Shown one piece after another: positions 22,960-62,882 of a DNA stretch of 64,000 nucleotides. Both the position numbers and the translations under genes were made by a program. Position 1 is the first letter of the stretch. Each line of letters opens with the position of its first letter. Origin of the DNA: Bolinopsis microptera. Its lineage: Eukaryota > Ctenophora > Tentaculata > Lobata > Bolinopsidae. The DNA lies in the NCBI RefSeq assembly GCF_026151205.1, contig NC_087079.1, positions 5,413,230 to 5,477,229 of the forward strand. Direction: 5' to 3'. The notes beneath the pieces are model-generated. The model searched no databases. It was given only the letters and a program-made list of their open reading frames with translations, and had not been told where the DNA came from.

Positions 22960-25475
22960 ATGTACGGTCCTCTGTTGTTACTAACAACCCTGTTAACAAC
23001 AACATTTTCCCTTGAGACTACCCTGGTCACTCTGACTACCCCTCATTCTAAACTACTGAGAAATGAAACCAGCACCCTCACTCTCCAGCTCAATGAAGTT
23101 GTAAAACAAGATCTCCTCTTCAACTGTACTCCTTCATCACAAGAGCTCCTTGTGATAAATAACGGCCATCAGATAAAGGTTTCATCACGACGTTTTCTCG
23201 AACTTTCCGTCAGGGATAATGTGGAAATATGGTCTCTATACGACCTGACCTCTATACGTCTTTTATATATACGTTAACGGGTCAAATTTAGGTATACATT
23301 TTTACAATTTGTCCGTTTAATTTTCACAATCGTCAACTACAACTCTACCCCACTTAAGGTAAAGAAAGGGACTAACAACAGGACAGTTAGCATTAAAGCT
23401 GGAGGTGAAGTTGGCACGTTGTACATCTCAACTAAGCTGCTGCAACACGACTCACTCAACCTTACCATGCTTACAAAGTATATTCCACCGATTAGAGGTT
23501 AGAAGATAGCATCGTTACCATGGTTACTGTGTTTACCATGCTCACAAAGTATATTCCACCAATAAGAGGTTAGAAGATAGCATCGTCCACTGATTGACTG
23601 GTGAACAGGCCGTAAAAGCACTTAAAAAGAACAGGTTCCAAGACGTGTTATCTTCTAGATTGGTCTGCTAATCTGAACAACATTCCTCTTCAGAATTGGA
23701 GGTGTTTGTGATACACTCTAAGAAGGTAGAAACTGTTATTGAAGTGTTGGGATGGCTCTACGTTGCTTTTTGGTCCATCTCCTATTATCCTCAAATCTAC
23801 CTGAATTGGTCCCGGAAAAGTGTTGTCGGTAGGATAATTAACGATTAATGGGGGATGGGGGGGGGGGGGAGCAACCGAGGGAAGCATCTTATCTTGTGAT
23901 ATCCGTTGTTCTGCTTGAATTTTCACCCGGGCTAAACATTTTTGTTTTCCCGATATCACACCAGTAGCAAATCATTACAATCCACAACTCTTCTCCTACC
24001 AGGACTAAGTTTTGACTTCCTGTTCTACAACGTATTCGGGTTTATGTGCTACTCAGCCTTCAACTTCTCTATGCTGTGGGTAACCCCGGTCAGGAACCAG
24101 TACTATGATGCTTTTCCTCATGGTGTCATCAACGTTCAGTTGTCTGACTTCTGTTTTTCCTTCCATGCGCTTTTCATATGCGGTGAGTGTCAGAGCTCTT
24201 TTATTTTCTTTATTCACACAATCAGTTGTACTATTAACGATTGTTCTAGGAGATTTATTTTCTTCAAAGAAAAATGATTCTAGAAATCTGAAATTCTAAA
24301 AATATAATTGTATTTGTGGAACTGCTAATGAACCAAAAACATCTAAATAATGGTAATACCATCAGCGTTCACGATAATACAGTGTGTATGTTACAAGAAA
24401 GGTGGACACAGGCCTAGCCCGCTGTGTTTAATAATCTTGTCAGGTAACAAACAACTCAACAATCCTAATTGAAAATAAAATGCAGCTATTTCTTAATAAC
24501 AAAACTTGATGCTATCAATGTTAGTGATTAACGGGTCCGGGACTCGTCGGTGTAAAAAATGAGGGTTAGGGTGGGAAATAATTATCATATCCTAACCTTA
24601 ACGCTCATGCCAAAGAGTCCAGACCCAGAATTAACAACTGCTACCCCTTTCTCCACAGCGGTTGGGTGTGGTATGGTACTAATGTTGCTAGTAGCCACCT
24701 TATCCTACATCACATGGTTCCAGTACGTGTCTATGTTCAGTTATGTTAAACTCGTCATCACTGTTTTTAAGGTTTGTTAGTTGTGAGATTGGGAATGTTT
24801 GTAGAGAATGGTTCGATTTGCTATTCATGTTTTCTCCACACCCATCACTACTGCGCTTTTTCCACAGTTAATTCGTCAAATATTTACTAACTCGGTTGTA
24901 ACAGCTGCCTACAAATTTGTTTAAATTATTCCTACAATCTTAATTTATAAACGTTGATAAAATGTTTCTCAGTACTCCCCGCAAGTGTACATGAACTTCA
25001 AGAATAAGAGTACGGAGGCTGTCTCAATCTATCAGTTCCTCCTGGATCTTTCTGGCGGAGTTCTCTCTTTGATACAGGTAACAAAATCAAATATGATTTT
25101 ATGACAAATCTTTTAGTAAATAATGGGATACGTATTATTGGGGTCACCACCAATCTGAAGTGAAGTTCACCACCAATCAAAGGTCGTCATTTAAAAGCTC
25201 TGTGTGATTAGGCAACTAGTGTAATTTTCGAAACTTCTAATAGGACGATTATGACCTATTCAGAATTACTCATAAAACTCCTCTTTCCTCAGATGGGACT
25301 GATAGCCTACAACTACGACGACTGGATGACCTTCCTTGGAGACTTCACTAAGTTCGGTCTGTCTGTCCTGAGCATCCTCTACGACCTCATCTTCATCACC
25401 CAGCACTACATACTGTACCGTGTACCAGCTTATAGTAACCTTAGAGATACGGAGAGTGAAGCGTTACTAAAATAA
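22960..25475 (+). CDS. CTNS: Cystinosin, copy A (lysosomal cystine/H+ exporter)
   Basis: Complete eight-exon gene: 22960-23178, 23359-23497, 23694-23828, 24003-24182, 24366-24443, 24659-24771, 24973-25077 and 25293-25475. It encodes 383 residues; human cystinosin has 367. An N-terminal signal peptide (MYGPLLLLTTLLTTT) and a luminal domain with NxS/T sites (NETS, NCTP, NRTV, NLTM) precede seven membrane segments. The two PQ-loop motifs are clear: GWLYVAFWSISYYPQIYLNW in exon 3 and YSPQVYMNFKNKSTE in exon 7. GLSFDF after the first loop and TKFGLSVLSILYD in exon 8 match the family closely. The C-terminal AYSNL fits the lysosomal YxxL sorting signal at the same place as in vertebrates. No defect seen. 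An inverted second copy lies at 41507-47432 with the same intron positions and phases. Confidence 0.93.
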
Positions 25476-33491: not shown

Positions 33492-36400
33492 CTTATCTTC
33501 AGGCTTCTGAGGTTCAGTTTTGTACACTTGAACTAGCTCCGGAGAAGGGGACCTGACGTCGGGGGAGCGGTCTCTTTTCCTGGACTTTTCCTGGGGTCAC
33601 GTGGTTATAATATGGGGTCACGTGGTTATAATATGGGGTCACGTGGTTATAATATGGGGTCACGTGGTTATAATATGGGGTCATGTGATCATAAGATGGA
33701 GTCCTGCTATTTTAAAATGAGGATAGGGGTCGTGGAAGGACCGTAACAGACATAACTGATAACATAAACGAGACCATTCCATAGAATATAAAAATAAATT
33801 TTCGTTTAATTGTTCATCTCAGGGCAATTGAAGTGGTCATAAAGTGGACCGATTGACGCATCGTATGAGTCACACTTCAAAACACCGCAAGAAGACCAAA
33901 TCTCCCCAATAATAACAAACCTGGTCTCTTTTGTCTTCTCCTTGTGGTTCCTTCTTTCTGGGGTGACCACCGCCATAACTCATAGACAGAGCAGTTAGGA
34001 GATCAGATGGGGCTTGGCTCGTGGTCGGGGGCGGGGTTTTCGGTCCTGGAAGGTTTGATTGATAACAAATAGATTATTGGCACCCGGGCCCCTCATCATA
34101 ATATTATTTCAAAAACTGCTCTCCTCTATTCTGAAGCTAAAACGTTGTCCCGGCCTTAAACCTCGCCCAATTAAAACCCCACGCGTCACAGGACCATTGA
34201 CCCTTAGCTGCAACTCTAACCGCTAACATGCACGTTAACCCAAGCCATGAATCCTAATTTTTAAAAATAACCGCCCAAAAATAAATAGCAACAGAGTTAT
34301 AAGGACATGTTGACACACATATTATAATAATGATAACAGATAACAGATCCTCAGTCCCACCTTGCGGAGGAGGGGCAGCGCCAGGAGTAGGAGAAGCAGC
34401 CTCTTTGTCTCCGAACAGTGTGTTCCCAAAGAGAGCGGACTGGAATGCGAACTCCAACAGAGAACTCCCGGAGGAGTCAGCACTTTCCTTCTTGCCAGCC
34501 GGCTTTTTGTCCACGTCGGGAGGTCTTTCTCCTGTCTGGGGAGGGTTTTAAGCTAGGTTACAAGCACGGTAGCTGTAGATTTGGGAGGGGTCTGTTCTAT
34601 AATTGTATATTTGTTGTCCAGTCAACAATGATAAGACTGGTAAAAAAGAATAAATTTTGATTTACGGGTCACTCAACTCTTGAAAGCTTGAATATGACTT
34701 GCTAAAAAAACGTACCTTTCTAGCAAAAGGATGAGAAGTGGGCCATGACATAACTTTTGAATGGATTTCTGCTTTACTAATCTTGATAACTGGTGGCAAG
34801 TCAGACACCTCTTCTTTTCTCTGTTTCAACTGTGGGCTGTGAGAAGATGTCGTAAACAAATATTAAGTTTAGAAATGTTACCAGATTAACTTGTTTCCGC
34901 ATGACAAGGGAGTGATCACTGATCGTACAGAACCAATTCTAACACGTGCTACTAATTCTTTCTTAACATATCACCATTTCACGGGCAGTGTGTTTTCTTA
35001 CCTTTCAGGAGGATGCTTCAGGCATAGTACAGACAGATCCGTCTGAAAAAATCGATCTGCCGACACACAAAGCTTACAAAGGATTTTTGACGTTTTTGAG
35101 TCCTAATAGATGTCCTTTATGGCTGACCAACTTTTCCAAACTTTTCCACGTGTCTTAAGGCCACTTTTTGCCACTTTACCACTTTTTACCACCTTTCTTG
35201 TTTGTCGAATATCTTTAGTTGTGAACATCGTAAAAGGTTGCGGATCAATCGACTGTGTTCATATTACCATGAAGAAAAACTTTTGTCATAACAATTTTTA
35301 CGTCAGATAATCAGTTAATTGGATAATTATCAATTAGCTAATTAGCAAAATTCTAAAAATTTTTTATTGGCTCAAAATGATCGGAATAGCTTAAAACACG
35401 GAGAAAAGTAGTTTTTAGAAAAACTTTGAAAATTTTTCACTTACATTTTTTTTCGAGACTTGAAAAATTTCGAAAATTCAAAATATTTTTTTCCGCCAAA
35501 AGTGATCAAATTGCATGAAACGCGGAGAAAAATGCTTTTCAAAAAAACTTAGTGAATTTTTCGTTTCAAGAATACTTAAATCACCAATATTTGTAGTTGG
35601 AGTTCAGTAAATCGCGGCAGATTTTAGTAATCAGGAATTACTAAGTGGAAAGGTCTGAAACTGAAAAACGTTAACCATACGATATAAGAGTTTCATAACT
35701 AATTACAATACAGCCTTATCGATTTTCACAGAAACTGCACCAATGGCACAGTCAAGATCGAAAGACGAAACGATAGCCTGCTGTACTATCATTTTATTGA
35801 TTTCAATGATGAATCAGTGGGGTTAAGATAATCACATTTGTAATAAATAAAACCTCTCTGTACCGTCAATTGTGCTAATCTAAACCGGCCTACCTGGATT
35901 ACCAGACCTCTTCTTTTCCTCAACAATCAAGCCAAGTTGTTCATATCGCATTTGGTGGACGATGTAAGTACATATCGAGCTGTATTCAATCACAATACGA
36001 CACAATGCAATACGTGTATATTATATTATGGCCCTTAATGAGGTATATGAAACGTTCTATACCGTACACTTCTCGTTTAATTTCTCCCGTGATAGGCCCG
36101 GTATGGAGAGGTTTTACAGTTTATCACGAAAACGTCTACTTGGTCTCATGACTCTTTGACAGCTCAAAGAAGGCAAGAAAAGACCAGAAAGCTTAAAATG
36201 TCAACTCGCTCTTTTCAATGCTCTTCGATCTGTCCCACATTAATCCCGAGCTGATCATCATGGGCCCCGAATATCCTGTCGGGAGAACCTGTATTTTTAC
36301 TTCACGACTTCCGGATTTCAAATCAACATCCTCAATAACATTAACAATCCTTCCTGATCAGGATCTGTCTCTATTAGCAATTTCCAAAATATCCTGACTC

Positions 36401-39400
36401 TCGTGGAACATTTTACTGAATGAATTATTACCGGTTCTTTACTACCCCTTGCCCGACGCTCGTATCTAAATCTTATCCTTGCCCGTATGTTATCCTTGTT
36501 GATTTTACTTTTAGCCGACCCTGACATATGGGGGTGATTTTATAGGTACCGCATAGCAAATGAAGCAGTATGCAGTACTGCAATACAAAACAAGTCACAG
36601 TAGATGTTGGAAGGTGTATTTACACTTGCTTCCTGGATCTGGCTGTACCTTAGTTTCCCTGGTCTGTTCTTGCCTTCTTCGAACTGTAAATGAGCCATGA
36701 GACCAAGTATACGTTTTCGTGATAAACTGTAAAACGTCTCTATACCGGGTTTCTCACGGTATTAAGCGTTTCATAAACCTCATTAAGAGCCATATAATAT
36801 ACACGTATTGTGTCGTATTGTGATTCAATGAAACTTACATCGCCCACCAAATGCTATATGAACAACTTGGTTTGATTGTTGAGGAAAAGAAGAGGTCTGG
36901 TAATCCAGGTAGGCCGGTTTAGATTAGCACAATTGACGGTACAGAGAGGTTTTATTTATTACAAATGTGATTATCTTAACCCCACTGATTCATCATTGAA
37001 ATCAATAAAATGATAGTACAGCAGGCTATCGTTTCGTCTTTCGATCTTGACTGTGCCATTGGTGCAGTTTCTGTGAAAATCGATAAGGCTGTATTGTAAT
37101 TAGTTATGAAACTCTTATATCGTATGGTTAACGTTTTTCAGTTTCAGACCTTTCCACTTAGTAATTCCTGATTAAAAAAATCTGCCGCGATTTACTGAAC
37201 TCCAACTACAAATATTGGTGATTTAAGTATTCTTGAAACGAAAAATTCACTAAGTTTTTTTGAAAAGCATTTTCTCCGCGTTTCATGCAATTTGATCACT
37301 TTTGGCGGAAAAAAATATTTTGAATTTTCGAAATTTTTCCAAGTCTCGAAAAAAAATGTAAGTGAAAAATTTTCAAAGTTTTTCTAAAACCTACTTTTCT
37401 CCGTGTTTTAAGCTATTCCGATCATTTTGAGCCAATAAAAAATTTTTAGAATTTTGCTAATTAGCTAATTGATAATTATCCAATTAACTGATTATCTGAC
37501 GTAAAAATTGTTATTACAAAAGTTTTTCTTCATGGTAATATGAACACACTCTATTGATCCGCAACCTTTTACGATGATCACAACTAAAGATATTCGACAA
37601 ACAAGAAAGGTGGTAAAAAGTGGTAGTGGCAAAAAGTGGCCTTAAGACACGTGGAAAAGTTTGGAAAAGTTGGTCAGCCATAAAGGACATCTATTAGGAC
37701 TCAAAAACGTCAAAAATCCTTTGTAAGCTTTGTGTGTCGGCAGATCGATTTTTTCGGACGGATCTGTCTGTAGTAGCAGTGTGTTTTCTTACCTTTGAGG
37801 AGGATGCTTCAGGCAATGTGTTTTCTTACCTTTGAGGAGGATGCTTCAGGGAGGCGACAGAAGAGTTAGACTCTGTTCCACTGATAGACTTCCTTCCCTT
37901 GTTAACAGCCGTGTGTTCCACCCTCCTCGGTTCAGGTACCTTCCCATCTCCTCTTTTCGGCACCTCTGATGTTTTCAGCTCCGGTTTTCTCACTGCTTCA
38001 GGTGATCTTGGCCTTGCTCCAGGTGATCTCGGTCGTGCTGTAGGTGATCTCGGTCGTGCTGTAGGTGATCTCGGCCTTGCTCCAGGTGATCTTGGCCTTG
38101 CTCCAGGTGATCTTGGCCGTGCTGTAGGTGATCTCGGTCGTCCTGTAGGTGATCTCGGTCGTGCTGTAGGTGATCTCGGCCTTGCTCCAGGTGATCTCGG
38201 TCGTGCTGAAGGTGATCTCGGCCTTGCTCCAGGTGATCTCGGTCGTGCTGCTGGCTCCGGTTTCTTAATGTCTGGAATATCTTTAGGTTTGTGTTTAGGA
38301 CTGAGCAAGGAGTCCGGCTTTAAGGAGGGAGCAGGTGCAGGATCAGCAGGTTTCAGAGGAGAAGGATGAGATTCAGGGTTGGAGTCTGTCTTGGTGGCAC
38401 TCTCCAGGGACATGTTCAGCTCTGACATCATTGCCTTGCTGATCGTATCTGTAAACGCTTTGGTGAAGGAATCTATCCTGTTCTCCCTAGTCTCTGCGTA
38501 CTTAGTGGCAGCTGAGGGGGTGGAGTATTCACTGGAGGGGAACTTGTTGTACTGGTCGTGAGTGTCCGATTCCGGGGGTTTGCTGACCGGACTGATGTTG
38601 TCCCAGCTCCTGTTGTACCCGCTTCTTTCGTGACTGCTTATTGGGCTCATGTCCGAGGGTTTCATGATCTGCCTGTCTCCTTGCATCTGAAAGAGGTCAC
38701 TGTTAGAAAGGCATGATTGTTATGGATATTCGGAAATCCTGCTTCTATAAATGAATCAGCATTCTGGCGGCAAATTGAACCGTGAGAAGCACTCTGGGTT
38801 TTGATTCGTCAACACTGGAAGCTGATTTGTTAACAGCAAAATAATTCCACGATCGAAAATCTAAGTTGAAATAAAACGTACGGGGCTCATCTCGGAGGGC
38901 TTCTTGGGAGTGACAGGCTCGGTAACAACTGAGTAGGGTGTGGAGGAGTAGGGAGGAGCGTAGGGAGTGGGGTGGAAGTTGGGTACAGAACCCACTGGAC
39001 CGGGGTACCCTGGGGTTCAAAGTCAATATTTACACAATTATCATCATCTGAATCTTCTAAATGCATCAACATTTCTGACGCTAAAATTAAATTAAAATAC
39101 TGACTGAATTTGAAGATGCCATTTATCTAGTGACTCCCCATTAATAGCAATATAGCAATATGTAAGTCTCTTAGTACCCCATAATTACCAGGAGTAACAT
39201 TAAAAGAGGGCTGGTAGCCAGGTTGCTGGGGTAGGTAGCCTCCTTGTTGATATTGGGGGAACTGTTGCTGGTTCTCATCTTCTTCTGTGGCAGGGAGCAG
39301 GTTCTTCAGCTGCTCGAACAGTCTGTGTTTCTCTTCGCACTGCAGAGGGTTGTTTAGGAACTCTAACAGATGTAGTAATAACAATGTGGGGTTGTAGCCT

Positions 39401-41506: not shown

Positions 41507-44500
41507 CTATCCCAGCTGATCTACAGGAGCAGATATTATCCTATCAGAATCCTGTCCCTCCTCTGCCTGGAGTAGCGCCTCACTACTCTCACTCCTGATC
41601 CTCTCCTCTCCTAGTCTACTATAGGCTGGTACACGGTACAGTATGTAATGCTGGGTGATGAAGATGAGGTCGTAGAGGATGCTCAGGACAGCCAGACCGA
41701 ACTTGGTGAAGTCTCCAAGGAAGGTCATCCAGTCGTCGTAGTTGTAGGCTATCAGTCCCATCTGAGGAAAGAGGAGTTTTATGAGTAATTCTGAGTAGGA
41801 GTAGGTCATAATCCTCCTAATAGAAGTTTTTAAAATTACACTAGTTGTTTAATCACACAGTGCTTTTTAATGTCGACCTTTGATTGGTGGTGAACTACAC
41901 TTCAAAGTTCAGATTGGTGGTGACCCCGACAATACCGACCCCAGAATTTACTAAAAGATTGATCATAAAATCATATTTAGTTTTGTTACCTGTATCAAAG
42001 AGAGAACTCCGCCAGAAAGATCCAGGAGGAACTGATAGATTGAGACAGCCTCCGTACTCTTATTCTTGAAGTTCATGTACACTTGCGGGGAGTACTGAGA
42101 AACATGTTATTAAATCTGGAAAATTAAGATTGTAGGTACAATTTAAATACAAATTTAAGCGGATGTTACAACTGAGTTGATCAATTTTTGGAAAAAGAGC
42201 ACTAGTGATGGGTTTGAAGACTGAGGTTAAAACAAAAACAGCGAATACAACCATTTTTGACACTCATTCCACCATTATTTCAATAACATTATTTCAATAA
42301 GCAAACCTTGAAAACAGTGACGGCGAGTTTAACGTAGCTGAATATAGTGACATACTGGAACCAGGTGATACAACAGGAAGTGGCTACTATCAGCATCAGT
42401 ACCATCCCACATCCAAACGCTAAGGAGGGAGGGGTAGACGTTGCTGTTTAATTAATTTAACAGCATCTTATCATCAAGATTTAGCATTTCTTAGTCAGGA
42501 ATTAAGTATTAACAATTGATAACCAATGACAGTTGTATTTTAGCACGGTTATTAAACCCCACAGTGAGGAGAGAAAAGTTTTTGTTAAATATTTAATTTA
42601 CCCTAATTTGATACCATTATAGGGGGGGGTGTCATGTCCGTCTATGTCCGCCTATGTCCTGTCCTTTTTGGATTCTATGAGACAACGGACGTGTTTTTTG
42701 GGACATAGGCGGACACGGACGGACATTGGCGGACTCGGACGGACATTGGCGGACCCGGACGGACATTGGCGGACTCGGACGGACATTGGCGGACCCGGAC
42801 AGACATTGGCGGACTTGGATGGACATTGGTGGACATTAGCGGACAAACATTTTTAGGACTGAAGAGTACTGAGGAGGATGGCTGAGAAGGATGGTTGAGG
42901 AGGATGGCTGAGGAGGATGACTGAGGAGGATGGCTGAGAGGGAGGAGAAGGATCAGGAAGACCCAGGAGGAGGAGGAGGAGGAGGACCCAGAAGGATGAC
43001 TCAGGAGGAGGAGGACTCAGGAGGAGGACTGAGGAGGACTGAGAAGGAGGAGGACTGAGGAGGATGGCTGAAGAGGATGGCTGAGGAGGATGACTGAGAG
43101 GGAGGAGGAGGAGGAAGAGGAGGAAGAGGACTGAGGAGGAGGAGGAGAAGGACTGAGGAGGAGAAGGAGGACCCAGGAGGAGGAGGACCCAGGAGGAGGA
43201 GGACCCAGGAGGAGGACCCAGGAAAAGGCCCCAGAAGGGGGAGGAGGACTGGGGAGGAGGAGAACTGTTGAGGACTGATGAGGAGGACTGAGGACGAGGA
43301 GGAAGAGTAGGATGAGGACTGAGGAGGGGAGGAGGAAGAGGACTGGGGAGGATCAGGAAGACCCAGGAGGACCCAGGAGGAGGAGGAGGAGGAGGAGGAC
43401 CCAGGAGGAGGAGGAGGACTGAGGAGGACTGAGGAGGAGGACTGACGATGACTGAGAAGGAGGAGGACTGAGGAGTACTGAGGAGGATGGCTGAGGAGGA
43501 TGGCTGGGGAGGATGGCTGAGGAGGATGACTGAGGAGGATGACTGAGAGGGAGGAGGAGGAGGACTCAGGAGGAGGACTCAGAAGGAAGAGGAGGAGGAC
43601 TCAGGAGGAGGACTTAGGAGAAATGAGAAGGAGGACTGAGGAGAACTGAGGAGGAGGAGGAGGAGGAGGACTGGGGAGGAGGAGAACTGTTGAGGACTGA
43701 TGAGGACTGAAGACGAGGAGGAAGAGTATGAGGAGGACTGAAGAGGGGAGGAGGAAGAGGACTGGGGAGGATCAGGAAGACCCAGGAGGAGGACCCAGGA
43801 GGAGGAGGAGGACTGAGGAGGACTGAGGAGGAGGACTGACGATGACTGAGAAGGAGGAGGACTGAGGAGTACTGAGGAGGATGGCTGAGGAGGATGGCTG
43901 GGGAGGATGGCTGAGGAGGATGACTGAGGAGGATAACTGAGAGGGAAGAGGAGGAGGACTCAGGAGGAGGACTCAGAAGGAAGAGGAGGAGGACTCAAGA
44001 GGAGGACTCAGGAGGAGGACTTAGGAGAAATGAGAAGGAGGACTGAGGAGAACTGGAGGAGGAGGAGGAGGAGGAGGACTGAATAGGAGGAGGAGAAGGA
44101 GGGGGACTGGGAGAGGACTGGGGAGGAGGAGGACTGATGAGAAGGATGAGGAGGAGGACCCAGGAGGAGGAGGACTGAGGGGGAGGACTGAGGAGGACTA
44201 AGGAGGATGGCTGAGGAGGATTACTGAGAGGGAAGAGGAGGAGGAGGAGGAGGAGGAGGTGGACTGAGGAGGACTGAGAAGGAGGAGGAGGAGGAGGACT
44301 GAATAGGAGGAGGAGGAGGGGGACTGGGGGAGGACTGAGGAGGACTGAGGACTGAGGAGGAAGAGGAGGAGGATGAAGAGGAGGAGGAGGACTGGGGAGG
44401 AGGAGGACTGTTGAGGACTGATGAGGAGGACTGAGGACGAGGAGGAGGAGTAGGAGGAGGACTGAGGAGGGGAGGAGGAAGAGGACTGAGGAAGATCAGG

Positions 44501-47432
44501 AAGACCCAGGGGGAGGAGGAGGAAGAGTAGGAGGAGGAAGCATCTAAATGTTATTTCCATTTTTGTCCGTTTTTGTCCATTTTTGTCCGTTTTTGTCCGC
44601 TCTATTTTTTGTCCGTTTTGAAAATATAGGGTACCGAACGGACAAAAAACATGATCCCCTATAACAGCAAAAATTGAACATTTTATTTAGCAATTGAGGT
44701 GTCCATTAATGTCTGCCTATGTCCGCCTATGTCCGCCTATGTCCGTCTATGTCCGCCTATGTCCGCCTATGTCCGCCTATGTCCGCCTATGTCCGCCTAT
44801 GTCCGTCTATGTCCGCCTATGTCCGCCTATGTCCTGTCCTTTTTGGATTCTATGAGACAAGCGGACATAGACGGACGTGACACCCCCCATTATATTATTA
44901 AAATTTACACTAAAAAGAAGCTCAATTTAATTTTCAACTGATTTAGTATTATCTTGTTTGTTACCTGTCAGGATAAATAAACACAGCGGGCTAGGCCTCT
45001 GTCCACCTCTCTCGTAACATATACACTGTAGTATTGTGAATGCTGGCGATAATAAAAGATATTAAATAGAAGCCAATAGTTGGTTTCAGACTACAAACTT
45101 AGACCCATGGACATATCCACGTGGTACGATCAAATTTTAAGAATATCTGTGATTTATTTTTGGAAGAAATATATTCCTAGAATAATCATACTCATAGCAG
45201 CACAACTGATGATGAGAATAAATTAAGTACACAGTGAAAGAGTATTTTCACTCACCAGTTATGAAAAGCGCATGGAAGGAGAAACAGAAGTCAGACAACT
45301 GAACGTTGATGACACCATGAGGAAAAGCATCATAGTACTGGTTCCTGACCGGGGTTACCCACAGGAGGGAGAAGTTGAAGGCTGAGTAGCAGATCCACCC
45401 GAGTAGGTTGTACCCGAGAAAGTCAAAACTTAGTCCTGGTAGGACAGGGTTTGAGTGTTAGGGATAATAGCGTTTGAGATTGCATTTTTTCTAAAAATTG
45501 AGATAGGTTCAAGGATTTTAACTTTTAAGAAAAAGATAGAATCTGCTCTTCCGTTCGCAAAGGGCAGCCATTTCCAAAAGATAGGTAGTCTTATAATTGC
45601 TATTAATTAATAGTGACTGTAAAAAATCCTACCAAAAACACTTTTCCGGGACCAATTCTGGTAAATTTGTGGATAAAAGGAGATAGACCAAACGGCAAAG
45701 CAGAGCCAACCAAGGACTTCAATAACAGTTTCCAACTTCTCAGAGTGTACCACACACATCTCCAAATCTGGGAAAGAGTTCTGTTAACATCTGGGGACAA
45801 AGCAAGAAGTGAAGGGAGCGGGGTTAAAACTTGAATCCCCGAATAAAGATATTCATAAGTCAATATAATAGCCCTGTTTCAGTTGATCGTCTAGCAATGG
45901 ATGAATTAATATTTTACCGGGGTGAGCACAGGGCTCCAATGCTCTATCTTACAGTGGTCATGATCTATCCAATAGTGTTAATGACCACAGCTCCCTACGA
46001 AGAAGAAGTGGATGAGTGGATGATATGATTTTTTAACCTCAAGAGCATTTCTTACATTGGGCCTAAGTTATATAACCAAACAGTCAACATTATTAACAAG
46101 GACATAAAATATGTCACCACTTGCCTACAAGACAAATTCCTAAATTCATTCAAGTCTACTGTCAACAAGCATGTGCTTACTGCACAAGCACATAAACCGG
46201 ATGACAAGGACTGGGACAACTCAAATTTCGTACTTTTAGAAATTTAAATAATTTGGTACAACGTACGTTGATCATAATAACGAGCAACAAAACTTTAACC
46301 TCATAACAAAATATGACTATCTTCGAGCATTTTTTACAATGCTATCGACACCGCGCAATTTCACTGTCATTTACAACTTTTAAAAGATAAAAATATCACC
46401 GCGCATTCTTCAGACCCTGTGTCGCTGTTCTAAATTTATGTCAAGAGATAAGAGTTATTTAAAATTCTTAATAGTACTATTTAAATTTGCTAATAGCATA
46501 ATCATATTTTATACATTATTAATACTTTATACATTGTGTGCATATATTTATATTTGATTGTAATTAAAGATTTTAAGGCGTTAGTGCCGAGTAATGCCTT
46601 CGGGTAGTGCTCCTCAATCAATCAGAAAAAGAGTTTTCAGTTAAATGAACCTGGTATGGTTAGGTTGATAGCTTTATGTTAAATGAACCTGGTATGGTTA
46701 GGTTGATAGCTTCATGTTAAATGAACCTGGTATGGTTAGGTTGATAGCTTTATGTTAAATGAACCTGGTATGGTTAGGTTGATAGCTTTATGTTAAATGA
46801 ACCTGGTATGGTTAGGTTGATAGCTTTATGTTAAATGAACCTGGTATGGTTAGGTTGATAGCTTTATGTTAAATGAACCTGGTATGGTTAGGTTGATAGC
46901 TTCATGTTAAATGAACCTGGTATGGTTAGGTTGATAGCTTTATGTTAAATGAACCTGGTATGGTTAGGTTGATAGCTTTATGTTAAATGAACCTGATATG
47001 GTTAGGTTGATAGCTTTATGTTGCAGCAACTCTGTTGAGATGTAGAAAGTCCCACCTTTACCTCCAGTTTTAACATTCACTGTCGTGCTGTTAGTTGTAT
47101 TCTTTACCTATAATTGAATGGAGCTGCTGTTAGCTAGGATAATTATAATTATACCTATTATCTATGAATATAAATCGTTTAAAAGATAAAATAAGTAGAA
47201 CATAGCCTACCGTGATCTGTTGGCCACCATATATCGTGAGGAGGTCTTGTGATGAAGGAGTACAGTTGAAGAGGAGATCTTCTTTTACAACTTCATTGAG
47301 CTGCAGAGTGAGGGTGCTGGTTTCATTTCTCTGTAGTTTAGAATGAGGGGTTGTCAGAGTGACCAGGGTAGTGTTGTCAAGGGAACATGTTGTTGTTAAC
47401 AGGGTTGTTAGTAACAACAGAGGACCGTACAT
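41507..47432 (-). CDS. CTNS: Cystinosin, copy B (lysosomal cystine/H+ exporter)
   Basis: Complete eight-exon gene: 47432-47211, 47107-46993, 45767-45633, 45435-45256, 45042-44965, 42419-42307, 42094-41990 and 41761-41507. It encodes 400 residues. Exons 3-7 have exactly the lengths of copy A (135, 180, 78, 113, 105 nt), and exon 7 encodes an identical peptide. PQ loops: GWLCFAVWSISFYPQIYQNW and YSPQVYMNFKNKSTE. Exon 2 is 24 nt shorter than in copy A and ends at a donor that is the first unit of a 38-bp minisatellite. The C-terminus is extended after AYSRL (again a YxxL signal) by an acidic tail ending APVDQLG. The frame is intact. Introns 2 and 5 are greatly enlarged by a LINE fragment plus minisatellite, and by a GGA-satellite element. 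Confidence 0.92.
42622..44888. mobile_element. G-run-terminated element carrying a GGA-rich polypurine satellite (copy 1)
   Basis: The direct repeat ATTATA flanks it (42616-42621 and 44889-44894). The ends are inverted: a G run, then GTGTCATGTCCGTCTATG on the left; the complement, with one change (CACGTCC), before a C run on the right. Inside the left end come about six units of GGACATTGGCGGACYCGGAC (42692-42844). Then comes about 1.7 kb of irregular GGAGGAGGACTGAGG repeats, almost pure purine on the plus strand. It is followed by a TTTTTGTCCG block (44560-44650) and 13 units of TATGTCCGCC (44705-44835). The phrase TTTTTGGATTCTATGAGACA appears in the same orientation near both ends. No genes. 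It lies in intron 5 of cystinosin copy B. Confidence 0.85.
46040..46615 (+). pseudogene. LINE 3'-end fragment
   Basis: GPKLYNQTVNIINKD...LQDKFLNSFKSTVNKHVL (46058-46180) has the form of the RT C-terminus of CR1/L2/RTE-type LINEs (GPxLWN, then Fxxxxkxxl). A stop codon follows at 46245, and a 3' tail leads to GTAATGCCTTCGGGTAGTGC near 46590. A TGA at 46026 breaks the upstream frame. It lies in intron 2 of cystinosin copy B, antisense to the gene. Confidence 0.55.
46641..47020. repeat. 38-bp minisatellite, ten units, each containing a copy of exon 2's end and donor site
   Basis: Ten head-to-tail 38-bp units beginning TTAAATGAACCTGGTATGG. On the minus strand each reads CATAAAGCTATCAACCTAAC then CATACCAG|GTTCAT. 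That is the last coding part of cystinosin-B exon 2 followed by its 5' splice site. The exon-proximal unit (46983-47020) has TCAG|GTTCAT and gives a phase-1 junction that fits exon 3. Confidence 0.93.
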
Positions 47433-52796: not shown

Positions 52797-54056
52797 TCAC
52801 ATAAATGTTGATAAACGCCCCATGGTCGCTGAACTGGCACGAAATATGAGAGGGGAAGGAAATGTTGTAGAGTATAAGGTAGCTGGGACAGTGGGAGCAG
52901 GTGTGAAAACAGACTCACCAGGTGAGAAGGTGAGAGGAGCTGCAGGGTGAGACTTGTGAGATGCTGGTTGGTAACTGGAGAAGGAACTGGGAGGTAAGCT
53001 AGAACTGGAAAGAAAGGGGTCATCGAAGTACAGAGGCTTTACAAATGTGAGAGGCTTCACGAAAGGTAGAGGCTTAACAAAAATGGGTCCTCGAACACTA
53101 TCTTTTTGAGAGAAAGTCGAAGCCTGACCGCTTTCATGAAAAAAATTTGAGTTATTCTGTTGATACAGTTTTTCGCCAGTATGAGTCATCCGATGGCGAA
53201 CTAAGAGTGAATTTTTGATTGAATTGTAGGAACATTCAGAACATTTATACGGTTTTTCACCGTTATGAGTCATCCGATGGTTAACTAGGTCTGATTTTTG
53301 GCTTGAACTGTAGGAACATTCGGTGCATTTATATGGTTTTTCACCGGTATGAGTCATATAATGGCGAACCAGGGTTGATTTCCAGCCAGTACTAAAGGAA
53401 CATTCAGAGCATTTATACGGTTTTTCGACGGTATGAGTCATCTGATGACTAAGCAGGTTTGATTTTTTGCTTGAACTGTAGGAACATTCAGAGCATTTAT
53501 ACGGTTTTTCACCGGTATGAGTCATCTGATGTCGAACCAGGGTTGATTTTTGACTAGTACTTAAGGAACATTCAGAGCATTTATATGGTTTTTCACCGGT
53601 ATGAGTTGTCTGATGGCGAACTAGGTGTGATTTTTGGCTTGCACTGTAGGAACATTCAGAGCATTTATATGGTTTTTCACCGGTATGAGTCATCTGATGT
53701 CGAACCAGGGTTGATCTCCAGCCATGGCTAAAGGAACATTCGGAACATTTATATGGTTTTTGATTTTCACCGGTATGAGTCCGCTGATGTGAAACTAAAG
53801 CTGTTTTTTGGTTTGCATTGTAAGAAAATTCGGAGCGAATGTAAGCATTTTCACTGGTATTAACCCACTGGTGGCAAGCTATTGCTGACTCCTGGTTGGG
53901 ACAATCCAACTGAGAAACTGCATTCGAATACACTTCTGATTTAATAAGAAAATTATCTTCCTCCTTCTTAGTCTCTGTCTTGATCAATTCTGGTGGAAAA
54001 CTTTCTTCTTTCATCTTCATCTCATCTTTAACGTCTGGAACATTTTTCTGCTCCAT
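52797..54056 (-). CDS. C2H2 zinc-finger protein with seven intact fingers
   Basis: Single 419-codon frame from ATG 54056 (MEQKNVPDVKDEMKMKEESF). The N-terminal 80 residues are acidic, without a visible effector domain. One degenerate finger (YIRSEFSYNANQ...HQRTH, about 72-94) has lost both zinc-binding cysteines. Seven fingers follow (about 98-297) with KCSECS/KCTECS knuckles and RHxMTH-type histidine pairs, joined by TGEKPYK linkers; two linkers are altered (TVEKPYK, NGEKPYK). The tail has the repeat FVKPLPFVKPLTFVKPL and is Ser/Pro-rich, ending GRLSTFM. A nuclear DNA-binding regulator is expected. The finger units are nearly identical in DNA, pointing to recent unit duplication. The gene lies between members 2 and 3 of the secreted family, on the same strand. 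Confidence 0.85.
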   Translation of the reverse strand: MEQKNVPDVKDEMKMKEESFPPELIKTETKKEEDNFLIKSEVYSNAVSQLDCPNQESAIACHQWVNTSENAYIRSEFSYNANQKTALVSHQRTHTGENQKPYKCSECSFSHGWRSTLVRHQMTHTGEKPYKCSECSYSASQKSHLVRHQTTHTGEKPYKCSECSLSTSQKSTLVRHQMTHTGEKPYKCSECSYSSSKKSNLLSHQMTHTVEKPYKCSECSFSTGWKSTLVRHYMTHTGEKPYKCTECSYSSSQKSDLVNHRMTHNGEKPYKCSECSYNSIKNSLLVRHRMTHTGEKLYQQNNSNFFHESGQASTFSQKDSVRGPIFVKPLPFVKPLTFVKPLYFDDPFLSSSSLPPSSFSSYQPASHKSHPAAPLTFSPGESVFTPAPTVPATLYSTTFPSPLIFRASSATMGRLSTFM

Positions 54057-59246: not shown

Positions 59247-62200
59247 GGGGGGGGGTCCAACCCGATCATTTCCGATCATTCCGATCCCGATTTTGGCCTC
59301 ATCAACCCTCATATCGGAAAAATCGGGAAAATTTAAATCTTCCCTCTGAGGTTTCTAGGCGATATAGGTAGCTATTTCTGTACTTAAATATGACAAGAAA
59401 TCGATTGGTGGTGGTCCCAGAACCCCAAAATGGTATCTTGTTCCAAACTAGAATCGTTTCGTCCGAAAAACAACACAATGTCGTATCAACTCTTGTTTGA
59501 CAGAAACATCCACCCCAGTCCACGGTTGGTAATAACAATCGTAACAAATAGCGAACGCTTTAGTAACTTTTGATTTAAATTGTCTCCACAATTTGTAACA
59601 GGCTATCTGCAGAAATGGGTAGCACGGTTAATGACTATGGTCCTTTCTCAAACTTCCAATCCTCAGTTAGATACAAAGAATAGTCTACACAATTTTCAAT
59701 AACATTAAAAGGGATGAAAATCACTTTATTTATCAAAATCTTTATTTATCATGTAACAACTTTTCCATAGTACTGGAGAGTAAAACTCTGTTAAACAAAA
59801 AAATTCTCGAGCACATTTTGAGTCAGTAACAGTAACATGTCAATATGTTACAGACTCAAATGCGTTTAAAAACATTTTAGTAACAATAAATTGTGTAAAC
59901 TGATGAGGAGGAGGAGGATAAGGAGGAGAATGAGGAGGAGGAGGAGGATGACTCAGGAGGACTCAGGAGGTGGAGGAGGACGAGGAGGAGGACTCAGGAG
60001 GAAGACTGAAGAGGAGGAGGAGGACTGATGAGGAGGAGGAGGAGGAGGACTAAGGACGAAGAGGACTGAGGAGGAGGACGAGAGCGAGGACGAAGAGGAG
60101 GACTGAGGAGGAGGACTGATCAGAAGGAGAAGGAGGAGGAGGACTGAGAAAGAGGAGGACTTGGGAAGGACTGAGGAGGAGGACTGGGGTAGGACTGAAG
60201 AGGAGGAGGACTGGGGAAGGAGGAGAACTTAGGAGAAGGAGGAAAAGGAGGAGAAGGAGGAGGACTGGAGACTGAGGAGGAGGAGGACTGAGGAGGAAGA
60301 AGATGAGGACTGAGAAAGAGGACTGAAGAGGATGAGGAGGAGGAGAAGGAGGACTGGAGGAGGACTGAGGAAGAGGAGGACTTGGGGAGGAGGAGACTGA
60401 TGAGGAGTATGAGGACTGAGGAGGAAGACTGAGGAGGATGAGGACGAGGACTAAGGACGAGGACTAGGAGGATAAGGACAAGGGCTAATGTAGAGGAGGA
60501 GGACGACTGAGGAGGAGGACTGATTAGGAGGATAAGGAAGAGGAGAAGGAGGAGGAGGACTGAGAAGGAGGACTGAAGAGGAGGAGGATAAGGAGGAGAA
60601 TGAGGAGGAGGATGAGAAGGACTGAGGATAAGGAGGAGAATGAGGAGGAGGAGGAGGAGGATGACTCAGGAGGAGGACTCAGGAGGTGGAGGAGGATGAG
60701 GAGGAGGACTTAGGAGGAGGACTGAAGAGGAGGAGGAGGACTGATCAGGAGGAGGAGGAAGACTCCAGAGGAGGAGGACTCAGGAGGAAGAGGAGGAGGA
60801 GGACTGAGGACGGGGAGGAGGAGGAGGAGGACTAAGAGGACGCGAGGACGATTGAAGAGGAGGACTGAGGATGAGGAGAAGGAGAAGAAGGACTGGGGGA
60901 GGACTGAAGAAGAGGAGGACTTGGGGAGGACTGAGGATGAGGAGGAGGAGGAGGAGGAGGAGAAGGAGGACTGGGAAGGACTGAGGAAGAGGAGGACTAG
61001 GGGAGGACTGAGGAGGAGGAGGACTTGGGTAGGACTGAGGAGGATGATGAGGAGGAGGACTGGGGGAGGACTGAGGAGGAGGACTTAGGAGTAGGAGGAG
61101 AAGGAGGAAAAGGAGGAGAAGGATAAGGAGGAGGAGGACTGAGGAGGAGGAGGAGGACTTAGCAGTAGGAGGAGAAGGGGAAGGAGAAGGAGGACTGACG
61201 AGGAGGAGGAGGAGGACTGACGAGGAGGAGAAGGACTGAGGAGGAGGAGAAAAAATGAGGAGGAGGACTGACGAGGAGGAGAAGGACTGAGGAGGAGGAG
61301 AAGGACTGACGAGTAGGAGGAGAACTGGGGACTGAGGAGGAGGAGGAGGACGGAGGAGGAAGAGAATGAGGACTGAGGAAGAGGACTGAGGAGGATGAGG
61401 AGGATGAGGAGGATGAGGAGGACTGAGGAGTAGGACTGAGGAGGAGGAGGAGGACTAAGGAGGAGGATGAGGAGGAGGAGGCTGAGGAGGAGGAGGACTG
61501 GTGAGAAGGAGAAGGAGGACTGAGGAGGAAGACTGAGGAGGAGAAGGAGGAGGACTTAGGAGTAGGAGAAGGAGGACTGAGGAGGACTGAGGAGGAGGAT
61601 GAGGAGACTGAGGAGGAGGAGGAGGACTGTTGAGGAGGAGGAGGATGATGAGGATGAGGACTGAGGAGGACTGAGGAGGAATACTGAGGAGGACGAGGAC
61701 TAAGGACGAGGAGGAGGACGACGACGACTGAGGAGGAGGAATGATTAGGAGGAGAAGAAAGAGGAGAAGGAGGAGGAGGACTTAGGAGTAGGAGGAGGAG
61801 GAGGAGGAGGAGAAGGAGGAGGATGAGGACTGGAGGAGGACTGAGGAGGAGGATAAGGAGGAGGAGGACTAAGGACGAGGATGAGGACGATTATGAGGAG
61901 GACAGAAGATGAGGACTGATGAGGAGGAGGATGAGGAGGAGAAGGAGGACGAGGACTGGGGGAGGACTCAGGAGGAAGAGGATGATGACTGAGGAGGAGG
62001 ATGAGGACTCAGGAGGAGGACTCAGGAGGTGGACTCAGGAGGTGGAGGAGGATGAGAAGGACTCAGGAGGAGGAGGACGACTATGAGGAGGACTGAGGAG
62101 GACTGATGGGGAGGAGAAGGAGGATTAGGAGGAGAAATGAGGATGAGAAGGAGAAGGAGGAGGACTGGGAGTAGGACTGAGGAGGAGAAGGGGATTGAGG

Positions 62201-62882
62201 AGGAGGGTGAGGAGGACTGAGGAGAAGGACGAGGACGAGGACGAGGAGTCAGGAAGAGGACTGAAGAGGACTGAGGAGGAGAAGGACTCAGAAGGAGGAA
62301 GACTTAAGAGGAGGAGGAGGAGGACATCTAAATGTTTTGTCTGTTTTTGTCCGTTTTTGTCCGCCCTACTTTTTGTCCGTTTTGAAAATACAGGGTACCG
62401 AGCGGACACAAAACATGATCCCCCAGCCAAGCATGTGTTACGATACAAATGTACTTGACTATACATTTAAGGTGCAGTGTACTAGTGATATTATGGTATG
62501 TTTAAAGACCGGACCACAAAATATAACCCGGTACCTAGTGTTGTACTAATACATAATAACAAGTAACAGGGATAAAATTAATGAGCAGAAACAATCGATC
62601 TCACGTCAAGAGGCCAAAGCACTCGGGTCTGGGAGTACATGACAACTCCAACTAGTAGTGAGCATACTAGCCCCTGGCCTGCAGTGGAAAAACACATAAA
62701 ACATACTATTGGAATGTCCAATTAGTTCGTTTTCTCATAACAATATAGCATATGTAGGGTTTTTTATCACTTCTGAGAGGTTTTAGAGATCGATTCTCTA
62801 AAATTTCTCAATTTTCCGATTTTTCCGATTTTTCCGATTCCGATTTTGGCCTCATCAACCCTCATATCGGACATCGGGTTGG

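Follow-up and report, generated by a model that had tools for sequence, protein, structure and literature searches.

The predicted end of exon 2 in a ctenophore cystinosin gene is repeated ten times in tandem, and every repeat unit carries the same candidate 5′ splice site. The gene, here called copy B, lies together with its paralogue, copy A, in a 64-kb window, the term used below for the whole stretch of DNA that was analysed. On balance, the array is probably an exon-intron-boundary minisatellite of the kind named "mirage" in amphioxus, mainly passive and likely a passenger of variable length, with a small leak into unproductive messages.

Anatomy of the array and of its host gene

The units of the array (Table 1) follow one another head to tail and all ten measure exactly 38 bp. 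Each consists of 27 nt from the end of exon 2 and 11 nt from the start of intron 2, which meet at a CAG/GT junction (the slash marks the predicted exon end). The donor CAG/GTTCAT is present in 10/10 units, and the consensus unit contains a single GT. As TRF returned 10.1 copies with 98% matches and a score of 745, the array is not a product of chance. In a pattern search of the 264.65-Mb assembly allowing up to 3 mismatches, the unit gave 10 matches, all of them at this array. The first-pass annotation had described a minisatellite made from an exon end, with ten exact-length 38-bp units, CAG/GTTCAT in each, identical 5′ splice sites and one productive member of the array, and this anatomy was borne out by reading and by script. 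Its extent, given as 46641–47107, needs correction: the repeated part occupies 46640–47019, and 47020–47107 is the unrepeated part of exon 2.

Seven of the ten units are identical. Unit 1, which is proximal to the exon, alone reads ATATCAG for ATACCAG, with a T for C four bases 5′ of the junction. The only variation among units 2–10 is an A-to-G change common to units 4 and 9 (ATGAAG for ATAAAG); shared by two units that stand five apart, it suggests one block duplication. Unit 10, at the far edge of the array, shows no divergence, unlike unit 1. Because the triplet AAC stands directly ahead of unit 1 and closes every unit, the first duplicated stretch appears to have been bounded by a 3-base microhomology, and slippage or unequal exchange would be the simplest start of the array. 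Under the reading that we favour, the 38-bp stretch of exon end and intron start was duplicated, probably by slippage between the two bounding AAC triplets, and would then have been expanded and homogenised into ten units.

Copy B looks like a real gene. Its eight exons join into an open frame of 400 codons. A search of the structure database with the product retrieves cystinosin (E 2.7e-76, query residues 24–360), and the NCBIfam model TIGR00951 (lysosomal cystine transporter) gives it 225.2 bits, against a cut-off of 192.35. The similarity to cystinosin is full length and includes PQ-loop motifs, the first match to which begins at residue 128 of the query. Between copies A and B, dN is 0.101 and dS is 0.264 over 375 codons, the mean dS being only a rough figure because the exons range from 0 to 0.955. 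The divergence is patchy, with exon 7 free of any difference (dS 0) and exon 6 at the upper extreme, a pattern that suggests local gene conversion.

It is very unlikely that copy B is instead in decay, with repeats piling up unopposed at its splice sites. Decay would fit the great length of introns 2 and 5 (1225 and 2545 nt, against 103–228 nt for the remaining five), the dispersed repeat that sits in intron 2 and the last rank of the array donor in the splice matrix described below. Against it, all 400 codons are open, every splice site is in phase, and dN is lower than dS, rough as that average is.

Table 1 Features of the two cystinosin copies, the array and the neighbouring repeat, in positions of the window.
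Feature	Position	Strand	Remarks
Cystinosin copy A, 8 coding exons	22960..25475	+	Own gene model; convergent with copy B
Copy A, two 54-nt copies, spacing 71 nt, 94% alike	23462..23586	+	First copy spans the predicted exon-2 donor
Cystinosin copy B, 8 coding exons, 400 codons	41507..47432	-	Open frame and homology; model built by anchors and phase
Copy B exon 3, acceptor TTTCCCAG	45633..45767	-	Phase 1 entry
Dispersed repeat in copy B intron 2	46040..46624	+	Antisense to the gene; LINE-like, apparently 5′-truncated by its shape
Array, ten 38-bp units	46640..47019	-	Reading and script; TRF
Units 2–10	46640..46981	-	Predicted intronic; donors GT 46954, 46916, 46878, 46840, 46802, 46764, 46726, 46688, 46650
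Unit 1, exon-proximal	46982..47019	-	Donor GT 46992; sole array donor leaving the frame open; one base off the other units
Copy B exon 2, 115 nt	46993..47107	-	Prediction based on homology, phase and an open frame; entered in phase 0 and left in phase 1; ends at the unit-1 donor
Upstream phase-1 donor in exon 2, AAG/GTGGGA	GT 47054..47055	-	Predicted; splicing here would remove 21 codons and keep the frame

The end of exon 2 and the choice of donor

Frame, phase and homology together place the end of exon 2 most plausibly at the unit-1 donor. The cystinosin alignment passes over this join with no gap at the junction. Similarity between copies A and B ends 5 nt before the donor: the two are identical at 84/115 positions of exon 2, at 0 of its last 5 nt and at 12/55 positions in the next stretch. 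Over the last 60 aligned positions of exon 2 they differ at 5, 1 and 9 sites in codon positions 1, 2 and 3, respectively, as expected of coding sequence; the first 51 nt of the exon show 4, 4 and 4 differences, without codon-position bias.

Exon 2 might truly end further upstream, at 47056 or 47062, in which case the array would be all intron and the luminal domain of the protein would be shorter by 21 or 23 residues. The donor at 47055 outscores the array donor by both measures applied (9.5 against 0.1 bits, and −8.8 against −5.6 kcal/mol for pairing with U1), is in phase 1 and leaves a 379-codon open frame to the normal stop. A second phase-1 donor at 47061 (GAG/GTAAAG) scores 0.8 bits and −6.9 kcal/mol, with a 377-codon open frame. 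We nevertheless regard an upstream end as unlikely, since exon-like similarity to copy A extends beyond 47055 (44/58 positions identical, counted as far as 5 nt short of the array donor), the codon-position bias of 5, 1 and 9 lies past that site, the segment in question aligns with solved cystinosin, and copy A has no equally strong site at that place.

When exon 3 is joined to the unit-1 donor, it is entered in phase 1 and the frame stays open. Donors 4, 7 and 10 of the array are likewise phase 1, as they add 3, 6 or 9 units (114, 228 or 342 nt), and the first-pass annotation was therefore wrong in reserving this phase for the exon-proximal unit. What makes the later array donors unproductive is an in-frame TAA contributed by unit 2; in scripted joins, all nine donors from 2 to 10 led to a stop after codon 121, in any frame. 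The early stop that had been predicted for the next donor is thus real, but its cause is this TAA and not a shift of frame. The phrase "only the exon-proximal unit" is valid for the productive donors of the array, not for phase and not for exon 2 as a whole.

With an exon that ends at unit 1, the spliceosome would mostly join exon 3 to the unit-1 donor, and the nine other units would be lost along with intron 2. Splicing now and then from one of donors 2–10 would add units together with the TAA of unit 2, so that reading stops after codon 121, short of the first PQ-loop match; such a message would presumably be degraded or yield a useless luminal fragment. Our guides to first-donor use and to a small unproductive leak are the published cases of the same layout in amphioxus, ABCA7 and CBS. 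By the same analogy, the label "passive" may be wrong, given the length-linked effects reported for boundary VNTRs in humans.

Splice-site strength was scored left-one-out with small matrices made from the 14 donors and 14 acceptors of copies A and B. CAG/GTTCAT was the weakest of the 14 donors, with 0.1 bits against 4.9–10.6 for the others, and 48/310 intronic GT decoys (15.5%) scored at least as high. By predicted pairing with U1, two of the 13 other donors are weaker than the array donor (copy A donor 1, −4.1 kcal/mol; copy B donor 6, −4.9 kcal/mol). No other GT site from the exon-2 end to the start of exon 3 does better by this prediction than the ten array donors, which stand at −5.6 kcal/mol each, with the next site at −5.5 kcal/mol. 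The predicted fold of the RNA from exon 2 through the array is no better than that of shuffled sequence (z 0.19; at least as good a fold in 55/100 shuffles), and the idea of the array as an RNA structure was rejected on this comparison. A U12-type donor or branch site was also rejected, as no fit to the consensus was seen by eye.

These values bear on an earlier proposal from the first-pass annotation, by which the repeated donors, all alike and weak, would compete with one another or draw U1 away as decoys, and the number of units would set the productive share of copy-B mRNA. Such a tuning ladder would be well served by ten equal donors that are the best U1 partners between exon 2 and exon 3 and of which all the later ones are unproductive, and effects of VNTR length are reported for human ABCA7 (PMC5954066) and CBS (PMC5188458). 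We still hold it to be improbable. Retention of one unit in ABCA7 is reported at 2 ± 1% and as independent of length (PMC5954066), the amphioxus mirages are reported as splicing-neutral (PMC3087553), the RNA fold of the array is ordinary, and its donor ranks last of 14 in the matrix, though not in U1 pairing. Tuning by unit number is possible, without support in this analysis.

The units could also be spliced to one another, each CAG/GT serving as acceptor and donor, and stepwise removal of units or zero-length exons would then restore the same message. Every unit does hold both CAG/GT and a CTAAC branch-like motif. However, introns as small as one 38-nt unit would be exceptional in animals. 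The array acceptors, at 4.3–4.7 bits, fall within the range of the real ones (−3.2 to 16.7 when scored left-one-out), yet the 90th percentile of decoys (10.4, n = 240 intronic AG) lies far above them. We give splicing between copies very little credence, even with its published precedent: tandem duplication of AGGT is a described route of intron gain, for which fission-yeast 24-bp arrays, spliced across copies, and ATP2A1 are the cases (PMC4974935). In human duplicated genes, tandem repeats of exon-intron boundaries are likewise reported as possible sources of new introns (PMC2812944). Copy B resembles these cases in having a repeated AG/GT stretch within a gene and a duplicated-gene setting, and is unlike them in that its AG/GT is an existing exon end (PMC4974935, PMC2812944). 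In terms of the Rogers model of intron gain through AGGT, GT and AG sites are both present in the copy B units, the acceptor scores being middling by the 14-site matrix.

The paralogous exon 2 and the repeats of the window

Copies A and B have the same seven intron phases. Copy A, in which the last base of exon 2 is predicted at 23497, is without an array like that of copy B at this exon; its two 54-nt copies (Table 1) repeat the donor, which is also found in the second copy, and an in-frame stop follows the first donor. By eye, the duplicated sequences of A and B are unrelated. By prediction, exon 2 of copy A exceeds that of copy B by 24 nt (8 codons), and similarity is absent beyond the last ACCAT that the two have in common.

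Among the 28 splice sites of the two genes, the 24-nt surroundings recur within 300 bp, at up to 4 mismatches, at only two, which are the two exon-2 donors; none of the other 26 sites has a nearby copy within these limits. As background, such a copy was found for 27/1112 exonic and 51/1364 intronic positions of copy A, for 26/1163 exonic and 2087/4723 intronic positions of copy B, and for 367/3000 random positions of the window. The coincidence between A and B is suggestive only, because one random site per gene among 14 would agree in 1 case of 14. It is conceivable, if doubtful, that this gene pair is prone to repeats at the end of exon 2, where boundary repeats move the splice site and rewrite exon ends while keeping the intron phase, the array being a snapshot of donor migration under way. 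If this reading is true, the tandem duplications of the exon-2 donor in the two paralogues would be independent.

The dispersed repeat next to the array looks like a 5′-truncated LINE. The assembly yielded 243 candidates; the 40 of them that were scored, among which is the copy in the window itself, showed 97–100% identity. In ten fetched copies (97.0–99.7% identity), similarity starts at 46040 in eight, at 46035 in one and at 46305 in one, and it ends at 46624 in five and at 46626–46637 in the other five; none reaches unit 10 at 46640. The array as a part of this repeat was rejected, as the unit matches only here (10/10) and the fetched copies end short of the array (10/10). No target-site duplication of the repeat was seen by eye.

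TRF arrays with a period of at least 6 make up 17.3% of the window, and TRF repeats are given as 13% of another ctenophore genome (PMC8527503). Within the window, 39/2355 exonic nt of copies A and B lie in such arrays. No enrichment of them was found at splice sites, 1/28 being hit against 4.8 expected by circular shift (P(≥1) 0.91), in a count that omits the duplication of copy A, which TRF did not list. With 4.8 of 28 expected and one hit, an array over a splice site is unsurprising in number; what is noteworthy is the regularity of the array and the matching event in paralogue A, rather than the overlap with a splice site as such.

Other repeats were observed elsewhere in the window. Two long purine-rich arrays with GAG/GGACTGA-like units lie at 42897–44538, where the first occupies much of copy B intron 5, and at 59905–62325; their strand skew is strong, with a GC skew of 0.48 and 0.78, respectively, in the nearest 2-kb bins. 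The segments 35789–35926 and 36876–37013 have the same translation on opposite strands and thus form an inverted duplication. A 21-bp array at 37994–38251 lies within a 297-codon minus-strand open frame with ARPRSPG/T repeats. At 53163–53761 there is an 84-bp array, the reverse complement of which resembles the linker of C2H2 zinc fingers. Two glutamate receptors were also compared with the structure database: the best matches of one were kainate, AMPA and delta receptors, with no ctenophore entry among the hits listed, and the best match of the other was ML032222a iGluR of Mnemiopsis leidyi, in keeping with a lobate ctenophore.

Known boundary repeats and the meaning of the array

Amphioxus mirages are described as minisatellite-like tandem duplications of exon-intron boundaries, in Adh3 and in the globins BflGb6 and BflGb9; in that account regular splicing is undisturbed, length varies, and the boundary units escape homogenisation (PMC3087553). 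The copy B array shares with them tandem units that span a boundary (placed here by homology), AG/GT signals within the units (in many there, as CAG/GT in 10/10 here) and homogenised inner units next to a divergent edge unit, which applies to unit 1 and not to unit 10. Its 38-bp unit falls inside the published range of 10–72 bp for units of Adh3 (PMC3087553). It is unlike the mirages as described in having ten near-perfect units, at a 5′ splice site, in a cystinosin gene of a ctenophore.

Two human VNTRs come close in layout. That of CBS, with a 31-bp unit and the name c.1444_1467+7(16_21), also repeats an exon end together with its donor (24 exonic and 7 intronic bases by the name) in a unit that is not a multiple of 3 (PMC2630376). 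It lies in a different gene and is further unlike the copy B array in that its 16–21 units vary between people and are linked to activity, more units being reported with lower enzyme activity (PMC2630376, PMC5188458). The 25-bp VNTR of ABCA7 includes the donor of exon 18, so that here too an array is placed at a donor, and retention of one of its units shifts the frame and leads to a stop (PMC5954066). In contrast to the copy B unit, the ABCA7 unit starts at the GT and has no exonic part; the array has 12 to about 427 units, and the chief effect of length described for it is skipping of exon 19, which rises with VNTR length (PMC5954066). As far as these accounts go, splicing in the published relatives with this layout proceeds mostly from the first donor (PMC3087553, PMC5954066).

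The VNTR in intron 6 of TERT has a 38-bp unit as well, and its effect on splicing is reported at nine or more repeats, a number that the copy B array also reaches (PMC3948165). Unlike the copy B array, it lies more than 1 kb from any exon junction and is reported to act through RNA pairing (PMC3948165). The common unit length is probably a coincidence.

By these published accounts, repeats at exon edges have precedents in amphioxus and in human genes, and the copy B array would be a further case. As a passive element, it would add to the exon-edge minisatellites that genes tolerate, here in a ctenophore. Its interest is modest unless the parallel with copy A turns out to be recurrent turnover. 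Should the choice of donor be leaky, nature would have provided ten identical 5′ splice sites in series, a single one of them productive, and with these a clean test of how position alone decides between donors. Together with paralogue A, the array may show how boundary repeats shift the end of an exon.
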